Assembly (NCBI GenBank): GCA_002840125.1
Contig: PGZF01000001.1
Span: 62,001 to 126,000, forward strand
DNA: 64,000 nt
Source: Gammaproteobacteria bacterium HGW-Gammaproteobacteria-15
GTDB taxonomy: Bacteria; Pseudomonadota; Gammaproteobacteria; Enterobacterales; Alteromonadaceae
Direction of reading: 5' to 3'
Below, in pieces: positions 8,246 to 24,648 of this stretch (the first letter of the stretch is position 1; each line of letters begins with the position of its first letter). The notes under the pieces are model-generated. The model searched no databases and had not been told where the DNA came from. It was given only the letters and a program-made list of their open reading frames with translations. A program made the translations under genes and the position numbers.

Positions 8246-8336
8246 GGAGGGATGGCAGAGCGGTTTAATGCACCGGTCTTGAAAACCGGCGTGGGTTAAT
8301 AGCCCACCGAGAGTTCGAATCTCTCTCCCTCCGCCA
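8246..8336 (+). tRNA. tRNA-Ser(UGA), copy 1
   Basis: The 91-base cloverleaf has acceptor stem GGAGGGA/TCCCTCC, anticodon loop CTTGAAA (anticodon TGA), a long class II variable arm (GTGGGTTAATAGCCCAC), the T arm GAGAGTTCGAATCTCTC and an encoded CCA end. It is identical to the copy at 8522-8612. Confidence 0.98.
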
Positions 8337-8521: not shown

Positions 8522-8612
8522 GGAGGGATGGCAGAGCGGTTTAATGCACCGGTCTTGAAAACCGGCGTGGGTTAATAGCCCACCGAGAGTTCGAATCTCT
8601 CTCCCTCCGCCA
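8522..8612 (+). tRNA. tRNA-Ser(UGA), copy 2
   Basis: Exact repeat of the tRNA at 8246-8336, including the CCA end, with anticodon TGA and the same long variable arm. Flanking sequences differ, so this is a gene duplication with separate upstream and downstream signals. Confidence 0.98.
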
Positions 8613-12006: not shown

Positions 12007-12082
12007 GCGAGTATAGCTCAGCTGGTAGAGCGCGACCTTGCCAAGGTCGAGGTCACGAGTTCGAACCTCGTTACTCGCTCCA
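12007..12082 (+). tRNA. tRNA-Gly(GCC), copy 1
   Basis: 76-base cloverleaf with acceptor GCGAGTA/TACTCGC, anticodon loop TTGCCAA (anticodon GCC), T arm ACGAGTTCGAACCTCGT and encoded CCA. Identical to the copy at 12356-12431. Confidence 0.98.
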
Positions 12083-12112
12083 ACTCTTTCAAAGAGTGAA
12101 AATTGTTTGAAT

Positions 12113-12186
12113 GGCGGGTTGGCAGAATGGCCATGCAGCGGATTGCAAATCCGTCCATCTCGGTTCGACTCCGGGACCCGCCTCCA
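12113..12186 (+). tRNA. tRNA-Cys(GCA)
   Basis: 74-base cloverleaf with acceptor GGCGGGT/ACCCGCC, anticodon loop TTGCAAA (anticodon GCA) and encoded CCA. It is second in the Gly-Cys-Leu order found after pgsA in many gammaproteobacteria. Confidence 0.98.
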
Positions 12187-12237
12187 TCACACAGTTTTGT
12201 CTGGTAAAACCAGAAAAGTAACACAAGAAAGTTGTCT

Positions 12238-12324
12238 GCCCGGGTGGTGAAATCGGTAGACACAAGGGATTTAAAATCCCTCGCTCGAAAGGGCGTGCCG
12301 GTTCAAGTCCGGCCCCGGGCACCA
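12238..12324 (+). tRNA. tRNA-Leu(UAA)
   Basis: 87-base class II tRNA with acceptor GCCCGGG/CCCGGGC, anticodon loop TTTAAAA (anticodon TAA), a long variable arm (TCGCTCGAAAGGGCGTG) and encoded CCA. Confidence 0.98.
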
Positions 12325-12355
12325 TTACTCATTAAGAGTAAATAACCAGATTTTC

Positions 12356-12431
12356 GCGAGTATAGCTCAGCTGGTAGAGCGCGACCTTGCCAAGGTCGAG
12401 GTCACGAGTTCGAACCTCGTTACTCGCTCCA
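12356..12431 (+). tRNA. tRNA-Gly(GCC), copy 2
   Basis: Exact repeat of the tRNA-Gly at 12007-12082, placed last in the cluster, 31 bases after tRNA-Leu and before the cluster terminator. E. coli has only Gly-Cys-Leu at this place, so the fourth gene is an extra copy. Confidence 0.98.
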
Positions 12432-15865: not shown

Positions 15866-15898
15866 CAAAAAAGGCCTGGCGTTAAAATGTCAGGCCTT
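15866..15898 (-). terminator. Terminator of the tubulin-like gene
   Basis: On the minus strand AAGGCCTG / CAGGCCTT pairs around a 12-base loop and is followed by a T run. It sits 18 bases past the stop of the minus-strand gene at 15917. Confidence 0.75.
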
Positions 15899-15916: not shown

Positions 15917-18097
15917 TTATTCTGCAGCGGCTTTTTTATTAGTTTGCGGGTTAAGTGAAATAACTTTGGTTTTACTGATCTTATGCCGGTAAATCTCGCG
16001 CAGGTACTTAATGGCTTTTTTCACGCTGTCGCGGCTTAGACGAATATCATTAATCGAGACAAATTTGTCTTTGTTATGAATAAGTTCACGGTATTTTTTC
16101 TCGTACATTGGCTTAATGGCATACCAATTGGTGTCGAGTATTTTGGCCGGGTTCTCAAATTCGTGCAGCATTTTATCCAGTGCTTCTTCATCGAAGTGTT
16201 CAGCGCGGATAAACTCCAGCATCGCCTGATCTAACTGCTCGTCAAAGCGATAGTTGTCTTTGGCAAAACAGCGTTTAATAAAGGCAACTATCAGCGTTAA
16301 AAAGTCGTCGCTTAAGCAGGGGCTTTTCACAATCAGCGTTGTCAGTGAAATGTTGGCAGAAGCACCAATTACCAGTGCATAGCGTTTTAGTGTGGTGTTA
16401 GGAAACAACGCATTTAAATGCGACTTCAGCCGGTTTAAATCCATGTAAGACAATTTGTAGTCTTTTGGCAGTGACACTATAGACACCACTGACGAGCAAT
16501 TTTTAAAGAAATGCAGATCTTTTAGCTCGGCAGCGTTATAGCCATTTTTGACATAGCTGGCCAACGTTTCGCGGTAGCGGCCGGATTCAATTGGCAGCAG
16601 GCTGATACCTTCGATGGCCTGGGTCACTTTATTAAAGTGTGGCAGGTCAATAGAGCGGAAGAACAAGTCATCAATATTTAAACCGGTACCGGTTTTCTCA
16701 AACAGCTTGAGTTTTTCGGCATTGCTGCTGTCGCCTGGTATTACGGATTCGGCATAGGCCACCGCAACGGGGCCGGCCAGGCTCATAAACAGGTCATTGG
16801 CATCAAGGCGGATAGTTTCACCGATATCGATACCGGCACGGCGGAAATAGTTTTCGTCGTAATCAGTGGTAACGGCCTGGGCGGTCAGAATATTAAAAAT
16901 CTGCTGTGAGATGTACTGGTTGGCATATTTTTCCATCGCATTAACATCGATATGCTGAATACCACCGTCATCGGTTTCTTCGGCATAACGCATAATGTCA
17001 TTGGAGATCAGCATCATGGCATTCCAGGGCCGAATGCGGTGCATTACGCTGGATTCGCTGCTGTCTTCGTTATCAAAGTTGTAGGAGAAATCCCACTCTT
17101 CAGCCAGGTATTTGCACAATAAGCGTCCGGCGTTTATATGCAGTGCTTCAGACATTTCCACGCCATGATCAGAAATGTTCGGCAAAATACAAATACCGCT
17201 GGTAAAGATCGGTTCAAATACAAAGGAGTGGCCGCGGTTTTCTTCATCTTCGCCCATAGTGCGGGTATCGAAGGTTTTGCTCATATACGCATATTGTTGG
17301 GCCAAGCCAAACTCTGACGCCATACCCGAGCCGGTACCGCCGCCGGCGCTGAAAATATAGAAATACAGCCGCGACTGATTAGCTTTAATACCACACGAAT
17401 CAATAAGGTAAGAATGAATATGCTTCCAATCGGCATTAGCAAAGCGCTGGGTGTCTTTATTGAGGATAATTTTTGCCAGATACTGGCCAAGAATAGGTGC
17501 ATTACCGGCGCCACCGGCATGCACTTCAGACAAGTCCATAATTTTCATCTTGGTGTAGTCATGCAAAAAGCCGCTTTTTTCACCTTTGTGGGAAAAACGG
17601 ATGCGGCCTTCGATGTCTTTATCCAAATCGCCGAGCATCACCAGCGGTTCAATTAAAAATACCGGTTTAACGGCCTGTGTGTCTGATAAATTCAGGCTGC
17701 GCTTAATCCAGCGCATAGGCCGGTACTCTTGTTCACGGGTTTGTTTTTCTTCGTTGTTAAATTCGTTCAGGTAAAAGTTACGGGCGTTATACACTAATGA
17801 GGCTACATCAAGCGCAATATTAGAGCCGCACCGGCCCAGGCCAATCAGACATACCGAAGGAAAGTTTTGCTGTTTACGGCTTTCTATTTCGTTGTCAGGA
17901 TTAACCAGCGGAAAAACGCTACTGCGCAGTGCATCCAGGTTCGTCAGAATTTTATTCAGATCGCGCTCAGTAAAATACATGTAGCGATCGCTGGCGAAAG
18001 AGGGGGGCAGAATTTGAGGTGAATTTTTTTTCGGCGCGTTTTTTACAATTACTACATCATCTTGTACGGTCCGTTCCGTATTTATTTTATTTGTCAT
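15917..18097 (-). CDS. Tubulin/FtsZ-superfamily GTPase-like protein, role unknown
   Basis: A 726-residue soluble protein. What is seen: after an ~80-residue leader there is a glycine-rich strand-turn GLGRCGSN (86-93) placed like the first nucleotide loop of FtsZ; the tubulin signature GGGTGSG at 252-258; ISND at 364-367, matching the FtsZ IPND segment whose Asn reads guanine; and RLDAND (430-435), matching the T7 loop N-x-D-x2-D with both aspartates (D432, D435) kept but the Asn replaced by Arg. These alignments are by eye. They suggest a GTP-binding, possibly hydrolysing, tubulin relative far larger than FtsZ (~380 aa), with a helical C-terminal region ending in a basic tail. It is a lone gene with its own terminator and no TubR-like partner. 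ATG 18097 is preferred to the adjoining GTG 18100. Composition is like its neighbours. Confidence 0.75.
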   Translation of the reverse strand: MTNKINTERTVQDDVVIVKNAPKKNSPQILPPSFASDRYMYFTERDLNKILTNLDALRSSVFPLVNPDNEIESRKQQNFPSVCLIGLGRCGSNIALDVASLVYNARNFYLNEFNNEEKQTREQEYRPMRWIKRSLNLSDTQAVKPVFLIEPLVMLGDLDKDIEGRIRFSHKGEKSGFLHDYTKMKIMDLSEVHAGGAGNAPILGQYLAKIILNKDTQRFANADWKHIHSYLIDSCGIKANQSRLYFYIFSAGGGTGSGMASEFGLAQQYAYMSKTFDTRTMGEDEENRGHSFVFEPIFTSGICILPNISDHGVEMSEALHINAGRLLCKYLAEEWDFSYNFDNEDSSESSVMHRIRPWNAMMLISNDIMRYAEETDDGGIQHIDVNAMEKYANQYISQQIFNILTAQAVTTDYDENYFRRAGIDIGETIRLDANDLFMSLAGPVAVAYAESVIPGDSSNAEKLKLFEKTGTGLNIDDLFFRSIDLPHFNKVTQAIEGISLLPIESGRYRETLASYVKNGYNAAELKDLHFFKNCSSVVSIVSLPKDYKLSYMDLNRLKSHLNALFPNTTLKRYALVIGASANISLTTLIVKSPCLSDDFLTLIVAFIKRCFAKDNYRFDEQLDQAMLEFIRAEHFDEEALDKMLHEFENPAKILDTNWYAIKPMYEKKYRELIHNKDKFVSINDIRLSRDSVKKAIKYLREIYRHKISKTKVISLNPQTNKKAAAE

Positions 18098-18311
18098 CAC
18101 ACTACTTCCTGTCTCTGGCGAAGCCTTTCAGCTTGTTAATTTAAACAATACCCATAACCAAAGGTAGTTGTTGTTTAAAATTAATACAATGAAAAGCTTA
18201 AAAACACCAGCATATAAACAGTAAATATCAGTAAATTAAAATGTAGTAAGTAAAACAGCGCCTTAACGTCATATTCTCGTAGGAACAGGCGCAGGCGCTG
18301 TCGGTTTATTG

Positions 18312-23486: not shown

Positions 23487-24173
23487 ATGGCAGACTCCCA
23501 CCCTTACATATCCGGTCCCGGAAACATTGCACAAATGATTCTTCAGCTGCGCAATTCATTTCCGCCGAGTGTCACTTCAGATACTGTAAAAAGACTTGGA
23601 CTGGCGTCAAATAACGAAAGTTATGTTATTAATGCGCTTCAGTTTGTTGGAGTGATTGACTCAGATGGAAAGAGGACTAAGGAGGCTGCAGATGTATTTT
23701 CTCATCATAAGGACGAAGAATTTTCTTCATCCTTCAAAGAGTTGGTTTCAAAGGCCTACTCAGATCTGTTTGACCTTCATGGTGAAAAAGCTTGGACTCT
23801 GGATGAAGATTCTTTAATTACGTTTTTTAGGCGTGCCGACCAAACTAGCGTAACTATCGGGAAGAGACAGGCTGGTACTTTTAAAATATTTTCGGCATTG
23901 TCTGGGTACGGCGAACTTCCGACCCCACGAGGGGCGAAACCAAAAGTTAATAGTGATGCGGCAAAAAAAATAACTAAGCGAGATCCTCCTAAAAAGCAAG
24001 AACCTGCCAAATCAGATAATCCATTATTTTTAAGTGAGCGGTCAAGCAACAAAGGGACGAATAGAGACTTCGGTCTCAGTGTCCGAATTGAAATAAACTT
24101 GCCTGCAGATGGATCCAAGGAAACTTACGACAATATTTTCAAGAGTATTAGAGAGAATCTCTTGAATGACTGA
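23487..24173 (+). CDS. DUF5343 family protein, candidate defence component
   Basis: 228 residues. The N-terminal part (about 1-145), beginning HPYISGPGNIAQMI with a winged-helix-like LASNNESYVINALQFVGVI, matches DUF5343 as I recall it. It is followed by a Lys/Pro/Asp-rich linker (about 150-180) and a conserved C-terminal tail VRIEINLPADGSKETYDNI. The biochemical function is not known. AAGGAAAA lies 6 bases before the ATG. The gene overlaps the next (TIGR02391/Ymh) by 8 bases, so the two products are probably made together and may interact. AT-rich, and located between two attC-like sites. Confidence 0.8.
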   Translation: MADSHPYISGPGNIAQMILQLRNSFPPSVTSDTVKRLGLASNNESYVINALQFVGVIDSDGKRTKEAADVFSHHKDEEFSSSFKELVSKAYSDLFDLHGEKAWTLDEDSLITFFRRADQTSVTIGKRQAGTFKIFSALSGYGELPTPRGAKPKVNSDAAKKITKRDPPKKQEPAKSDNPLFLSERSSNKGTNRDFGLSVRIEINLPADGSKETYDNIFKSIRENLLND

Positions 24174-24648
24174 TGTGCTTAAACGGTTTGAGTCAATTGC
24201 TAGAAGAGCTTTTGAGTATACGTCTGCGTCACTTCAAGAAGAAGCAACAGGAGTGCATCCTTTTGACGAAAGAAACATGCACCCTGATATTGCATCACTC
24301 ACTCAAAAGCTTTTTGATGACGCGCATTATGCTCAGGCAACATTCGAAGCATACAAATATGTGGATAAGAAAGTTGCTAAATTGGCAGGAGTATCAGATA
24401 CAGGTGTAAAGCTTATGATGAGGGCGTTTAACGAAAAATTCCCTTTAGTAAAACTCAATGCTCTGAGCTCTATAAGCGAAACAGATGAACAAGAGGGCTA
24501 TAAATTTCTTTTCTCTGGTAGCGTAATGGCAATTCGAAATCCTCGGGGCCATGAACCCAATATGAAAGAAACTCCTACAGAGTGCCTAGATCACTTGAGT
24601 CTGGCTTCTATGCTATTAAGAAGAATTGAAAAGTCGCCATGGGTATAA
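24166..24648 (+). CDS. TIGR02391/Ymh family protein with HEPN-like R-N-x3-H motif
   Basis: 160 residues matching the TIGR02391 (Hypoth_Ymh) family: HPDIASLTQKLFDDAHYAQA, then a helical middle and a conserved end SVMAIRNPRGHEPN. R124-N-P-R-G-H129 has the form of the HEPN ribonuclease active site (R-[N]-x3/4-H), so an RNA-cleaving toxin or abortive-infection role is plausible; this is inference. Translation begins inside the DUF5343 gene (8-base overlap), implying coupling. Its stop codon runs into TATAACAAATGC, which looks like the left end of an attC site. Confidence 0.8.
   Translation: MTDVLKRFESIARRAFEYTSASLQEEATGVHPFDERNMHPDIASLTQKLFDDAHYAQATFEAYKYVDKKVAKLAGVSDTGVKLMMRAFNEKFPLVKLNALSSISETDEQEGYKFLFSGSVMAIRNPRGHEPNMKETPTECLDHLSLASMLLRRIEKSPWV

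Follow-up and report, generated by a model that had tools for sequence, protein, structure and literature searches.

A lone chromosomal gene for an FtsZ-like 2 protein, a predicted tubulin-superfamily GTPase, among the Gammaproteobacteria

Within the window, the 64,000-nucleotide stretch of DNA analysed here, an open reading frame for a 726-residue protein runs along the minus strand from an ATG at 18097 to a stop codon at 15917–15919; a GTG one codon upstream of the ATG is an alternative start. An earlier note on this DNA had described a frame at 15917–18097. The frame is real, hundreds of gammaproteobacterial genomes encoding homologues of the whole protein, and its coding strand is the minus strand, the plus-strand translation of the same interval having many stops.

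On one side the gene converges with an aldo/keto reductase gene, and the two have in common a likely terminator, a stem-loop that on the minus strand leads into a T run (15866–15898, stem-loop 15871–15898; z −2.6 on the minus strand and −4.9 on the plus strand), which is missing from the list of a simple consensus scan. On the other side lies etfQO, read in the same direction, and the ~210 bases between the two genes contain a strong stem-loop followed by TTTT (18255–18301, minus strand; z −5.3), the likely end of the etfQO transcript. A possible sigma-70-type promoter, TTGTAT-N17-TACCTT (18161–18189, minus strand), is tentative, as it was read by eye and is missing from the simple scan's list; similar sites lie upstream of several relatives. 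With a stem-loop on either side and a promoter-like site of its own, the gene looks monocistronic, in line with the earlier description of a lone gene with its own terminator among housekeeping genes. Nothing resembling a partner gene was seen next to it; the 64-kb window yielded no GGDEF/EAL gene, and the two flanks scanned yielded no iteron-like repeat array.

Elsewhere in the window, on the plus strand, two tRNA-Ser(tga) genes lie near each other (8246–8336 and 8522–8612), and a tRNA cluster, Gly-Cys-Leu-Gly, includes two tRNA-Gly(gcc) genes (12007–12431). An adjacent gene pair at 23487–24648, also on the plus strand, resembles an anti-phage defence pair; its first gene matches PADLOC PDC-M34A (E 1e-22), and its second matches TIGR02391 (above cut-off) and the PD-Lambda-3_B and Aga_HEPN models.

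The same genome encodes an ordinary FtsZ of 386 residues (locus L203, contig 5), about half the size of the 726-residue protein, as had been noted for FtsZ in general. Conservation of the larger protein was assessed in 203 homologues, the most distant at 58% identity, and in a separate alignment of 25 members. Across the 203 homologues 271 alignment columns are invariant; loops T1, T3, T4, T6 and T7 follow one another as in FtsZ and hardly vary. A variable N-terminal tail (residues 1–38; 17984–18097, minus strand, as for all features of the protein) is almost absent in the Marinomonas-like branch of the 25-member alignment. The T1-like loop GLGRCGSN (residues 86–93; 17819–17842; GVGGGGGN in the genome's own FtsZ) is identical in 201 of the 203 homologues, the other two having GFGRCGSN. 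An insert peculiar to the family (residues 107–190; 17528–17779), which contains the near-invariant stretch VFLIEPLVMLGDLDKDIEGRIRFS, separates this loop from T3. The T3-like loop HAGGAGNAPI (residues 193–202; 17492–17521) conforms to HAGG[AS]GNAPI in all 203 and by eye resembles the GAGANPEIG of the genome's own FtsZ. The phosphate-binding T4 loop AGGGTGSG (residues 251–258; 17324–17347; GMGGGTGTG in FtsZ) is present in 202 of 203 homologues, and none of 200,000 shuffled versions of the protein contained GGGTG[ST]G.

Further along the chain, the T6-like, guanine-reading ISND (residues 364–367; 16997–17008; IPND in FtsZ) is found in 203 of 203 homologues, and the equivalent of the T7 catalytic loop, RLDAND (residues 430–435; 16793–16810; NVDFAD in FtsZ), in 202, with RLDANG in one. 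Each of the four motifs that the earlier note had picked out (GLGRCGSN, GGGTGSG at 252–258, ISND and RLDAND) therefore sits in the translation where it was said to be. The arginine in place of the T7 asparagine, which had been regarded as odd, is not a peculiarity of this gene but a feature of the family, and may signify altered, tuned or abolished hydrolysis. The family-specific C-terminal region (residues 452–716, 265 residues; 15950–16744) contains highly conserved blocks and has no Pfam match.

In terms of superfamily, the window protein falls below the Pfam cut-offs for both Tubulin (PF00091; E 0.015, cut-off 33 bits) and Tubulin_2 (PF13809; E 0.01, cut-off 27 bits), with scores of 16.1 and 15.6 bits, respectively. 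All 25 of the members scanned match both models (best E 0.0027 for Tubulin and 0.0047 for Tubulin_2), whereas each competing Pfam family matches at most 6 of the 25; matches to DUF6562, Noc2, malate:quinone oxidoreductase and ribosomal protein L23 are weak, occur in one or a few members and were set aside as chance. An HHpred match of the Pseudomonas protein PFL_1302 to PF00091 has been published (E 0.0033; PMC2875224). A hidden Markov model of 23 gammaproteobacterial FtsZ sequences did not distinguish the family from shuffled sequences, and hhalign against FtsZ gave an alignment in the T4 segment only. As a direct FtsZ profile is blind to the protein, assignment to the superfamily depends on the Pfam models, the order of the motifs and the published HHpred result. 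No meaningful sequence relative was returned by searches of the PDB, and AlphaFold2 models of the full protein and of residues 76–455, which were discarded, had low confidence (pLDDT 31 and 34), probably because the homologues used were too alike. The consistent double match and the FtsZ-like motif order support the assignment to the tubulin/FtsZ superfamily proposed earlier; the GTPase fold itself, GTP binding, hydrolysis, polymerisation and a cellular role are predictions from these sequence features.

The protein fits a family already known. FtsZ-like 2 (FtsZl2) was defined by Makarova and Koonin in 2010, with PFL_1302 of Pseudomonas fluorescens Pf-5 as its type, as a family confined to Proteobacteria, with T1, T4, T6, T7 and H7, inserts in the T1-to-T4 region, a C-terminal region of its own of ~300 residues, no coiled-coil domain and no associated genes, for which the authors predicted filaments (PMC2875224). 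The window protein has GGGTG(S/T)G together with T1, T6 and T7, an insert at residues 107–190, an extra C-terminal region without known relatives and no associated genes, and is homologous over its full length to a Pseudomonas copy: the P. protegens FD6 protein (L098) is 77% identical to it over residues 1–723. L098 probably corresponds to PFL_1302, as it comes from the same species, is present in one copy per genome and has matching motifs. What had been called an unexplained cytoskeletal or switch protein thus fits a family named in 2010; a cytoskeletal or switch role is one that we likewise infer. We found no work on FtsZl2 after 2010 in the open-access literature under the names searched.

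Carriers of the gene were found only in Gammaproteobacteria among the genomes searched. They make up 22 of 31 genomes in its own genus (the window's genome counted), 99 of 149 in Pseudomonas (the genus being inferred) and 30 of 49 in a genus termed Marinomonas-like on the basis of PMC2875224 and its genome make-up; in its own family the gene occurs in 55 of 267 genomes and 17 of 52 genera, and elsewhere carriers are few (2/369, 9/398 and 20/342 in three further genome sets). Nearly every carrier has a single copy, the one apparent duplicate being in a genome (G1062) that is 5% contaminated. The most diverged members, L328 and L329 (genomes G1236 and G1321), have 58% identity. Ten non-carriers of its own genus lack the tubulin-like gene but retain etfQO and rluF, and four of these also an aldo/keto reductase gene. 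Genome G044, from a relative in the same order, has a decayed copy with frameshifts and stops at L176:8396–11230 (minus strand). The gene is dispensable in nature, as it is naturally absent from relatives. Its insertion site differs by lineage (etfQO, MFS/3-hydroxyisobutyrate dehydrogenase, ppx, GAPDH, thiC/gltX, acetyl-CoA synthetase and others), and no universal partner gene was found across the neighbourhoods of these lineages. A survey of gene presence and neighbours, which the earlier note had recommended, thus yields a patchy, single-copy gene without a universal partner.

The protein is under very strong purifying selection. Between species dN is 0.03–0.25, and synonymous sites are saturated for most pairs; pairs with finite dS give dN/dS values of 0.034/1.31, 0.107/2.15 and 0.132/2.25. 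As synonymous sites are saturated at low dN, the high identity reflects selection and not recency, which rules out recent transfer as its source for most pairs. The protein is among the most conserved in its neighbourhood: in the same genome pairs its identity exceeds that of the flanking EtfQO (94 vs 88%, 92 vs 84% and 87 vs 81%), as it does in comparison with Alkalimonas (88% vs 79%). The gene tree has SH-aLRT support values from a brief search and contains some long branches. In it the Rheinheimera, Paraglaciecola and Cellvibrio copies form one clade beside Pseudomonas, separate from the majority of other Alteromonadaceae, and an Alteromonadaceae copy (L319, genome G1174) is nested in the Marinomonas-like clade, likely as a result of transfer between orders. 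These placements show horizontal transfer, and the gene spreads between species on its own. Dispensability, lone-gene transfer, very slow evolution, single copy and patchy presence are what the present analysis adds to the published description.

On balance, we consider it probable that the protein is a chromosomal FtsZl2 member that serves as an accessory polymerising GTPase of the tubulin/FtsZ superfamily, with a hydrolytic site completed by T7. In the proposed mechanism, T1 (86–93), T3 (193–202), T4 (251–258) and T6 (364–367) would form the GTP pocket, and their fixation argues for GTP binding. Subunits would stack head to tail, such that Asp432 and Asp435 of RLDAND complete the hydrolytic site of the next subunit and a dynamic filament results; the fixation of both aspartates suggests that T7 meets the nucleotide of the next subunit, as in FtsZ filaments. 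The C-terminal region and the 107–190 insert would set lateral, cargo or partner contacts. Such a protein would act beside FtsZ and not in its place, and would be distinct from the tubulins of plasmid partition and of phages.

The same loops could be read in another way, as a GTP-dependent switch or scaffold with a tubulin core that does not polymerise, in which the T7 arginine and the inserts block filament contacts and the C-terminal region serves as effector. The arginine fixed at the T7 asparagine position, the large family-specific insert and C-terminal region, and the lack of an FtsZ-like alignment beyond T4 are all consistent with a switch. However, the T7 aspartates are also fixed (the second in 202 of 203 homologues), as expected if a T7-to-GTP contact between subunits is used, and all FtsZ-type elements, T6, T7 and H7 included, are present (PMC2875224); we regard the switch as possible but unlikely.

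Constraint as extreme as this is in keeping with a protein that assembles with itself or binds a component found in every host. A more speculative, rather doubtful extension of the polymerising reading is that of a one-gene cytoskeletal system, horizontally mobile among gammaproteobacteria and acting on a component that all hosts have, and perhaps wired in some lineages to local c-di-GMP enzymes. No co-transferred partner would be needed, since the target would already be in every host, and a universal target would entail stronger constraint than that on core enzymes. Patchy presence, single-gene transfer and varied insertion sites could also describe an accessory system spreading in the manner of a mobile element, such as one for anti-phage defence or stress survival that uses the tubulin fold. 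This is improbable, as the FtsZl2 protein has no PADLOC match, its neighbours are housekeeping genes and not defence islands, and it evolves very slowly, unlike most defence genes. It is equally hard to credit the protein with a part in division as an FtsZ modulator or paralogue: it coexists with FtsZ and has nucleotide-binding loops in common with it, but its gene lies outside the division gene cluster in all annotated neighbourhoods and is missing in many close relatives, and the C-terminal tail of the protein varies and has an ending unlike that of FtsZ.

A link to c-di-GMP was suggested by gene neighbourhoods in the first genome set, in which six different GGDEF/EAL protein families are encoded within two genes of the FtsZl2 gene. 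These neighbours are, in Pseudomonas, MHYT-GGDEF-EAL and NMT1-GGDEF proteins on either side and, in the Marinomonas-like genus, an Amt-PAS-GGDEF-EAL protein on either side; others occur in an Alkalimonas MAG, Paraglaciecola polaris and genome G055. The genes lie at L034:12190–15237, L041:7438–8424, L170:5403–8471, L174:11386–14481 and L175:11516–13408 on the minus strand and at L055:12192–13868, L059:8227–9855 and L075:12151–14331 on the plus strand. Counted once per family, GGDEF/EAL proteins make up 6 of the 79 near families and 1 of the 256 more distant ones (post hoc, p = 0.0008). In a held-out set of genomes, from Alteromonadaceae and other groups, however, just 1 of the 74 near families is of this kind (p = 0.40), so the signal is not established and the 2010 statement of no fixed partner stands. 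The proximity is possibly a hotspot effect, or may reflect lineage-specific wiring. That the protein is a component coupled to c-di-GMP, as effector or localiser of the adjoining GGDEF/EAL enzymes, is very improbable, as the held-out genomes speak against it, the Marinomonas-like partner (L170, in which PAS-GGDEF-EAL is fused to an ammonium-transporter domain) is encoded by 41 of the 49 genomes of that genus, with or without the tubulin gene, and the Rheinheimera flanks examined, like the window, contain no GGDEF/EAL gene.

If the assignment is correct, most Pseudomonas species sampled have a second, non-division protein of the tubulin superfamily that is nearly frozen in sequence. Being dispensable, horizontally inherited and constrained, FtsZl2 would offer a tractable way to examine how proteins of the FtsZ type gain new jobs.

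Among known systems, plasmid TubZ/RepX and the PhuZ of jumbo phages are related to the protein at the level of the superfamily, but FtsZl2 has no TubR or centromere partner and no plasmid or phage homologue. No homologue was found in 72,556 plasmids, in 50,697 phage records, in viral contigs or in an E. coli collection; these absences, with the chromosomal housekeeping context and the lack of an iteron array in the flanks, led us to reject both TubZ type III partition and PhuZ, as the earlier note had anticipated. FtsZ-like 1, to which the Pfam Tubulin_2 model belongs, is matched weakly (PF13809, E 0.005–0.01). That family has coiled coils and vWA/GTPase/OmpA operons, whereas the window gene has no such partners and a score below cut-off: no operon of this kind was found around the carriers examined, and the annotated immediate neighbours include no vWA protein and one lone OmpA-like barrel protein (at locus L319). 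With the genome's own FtsZ the protein shares the order and character of T1, T3, T4, T6 and T7; it differs in the T1–T3 insert, the unrelated C-terminal region and the T7 arginine, and its gene is patchy and sits beside etfQO and the aldo/keto reductase gene, outside the division cluster. The closest correspondence is with FtsZl2 as typified by PFL_1302: no feature of the window protein contradicts membership, and the two agree in GGGTGSG, in T1, T4, T6 and T7, in an extra C-terminal region, in being proteobacterial and in being encoded by a lone gene alongside FtsZ.
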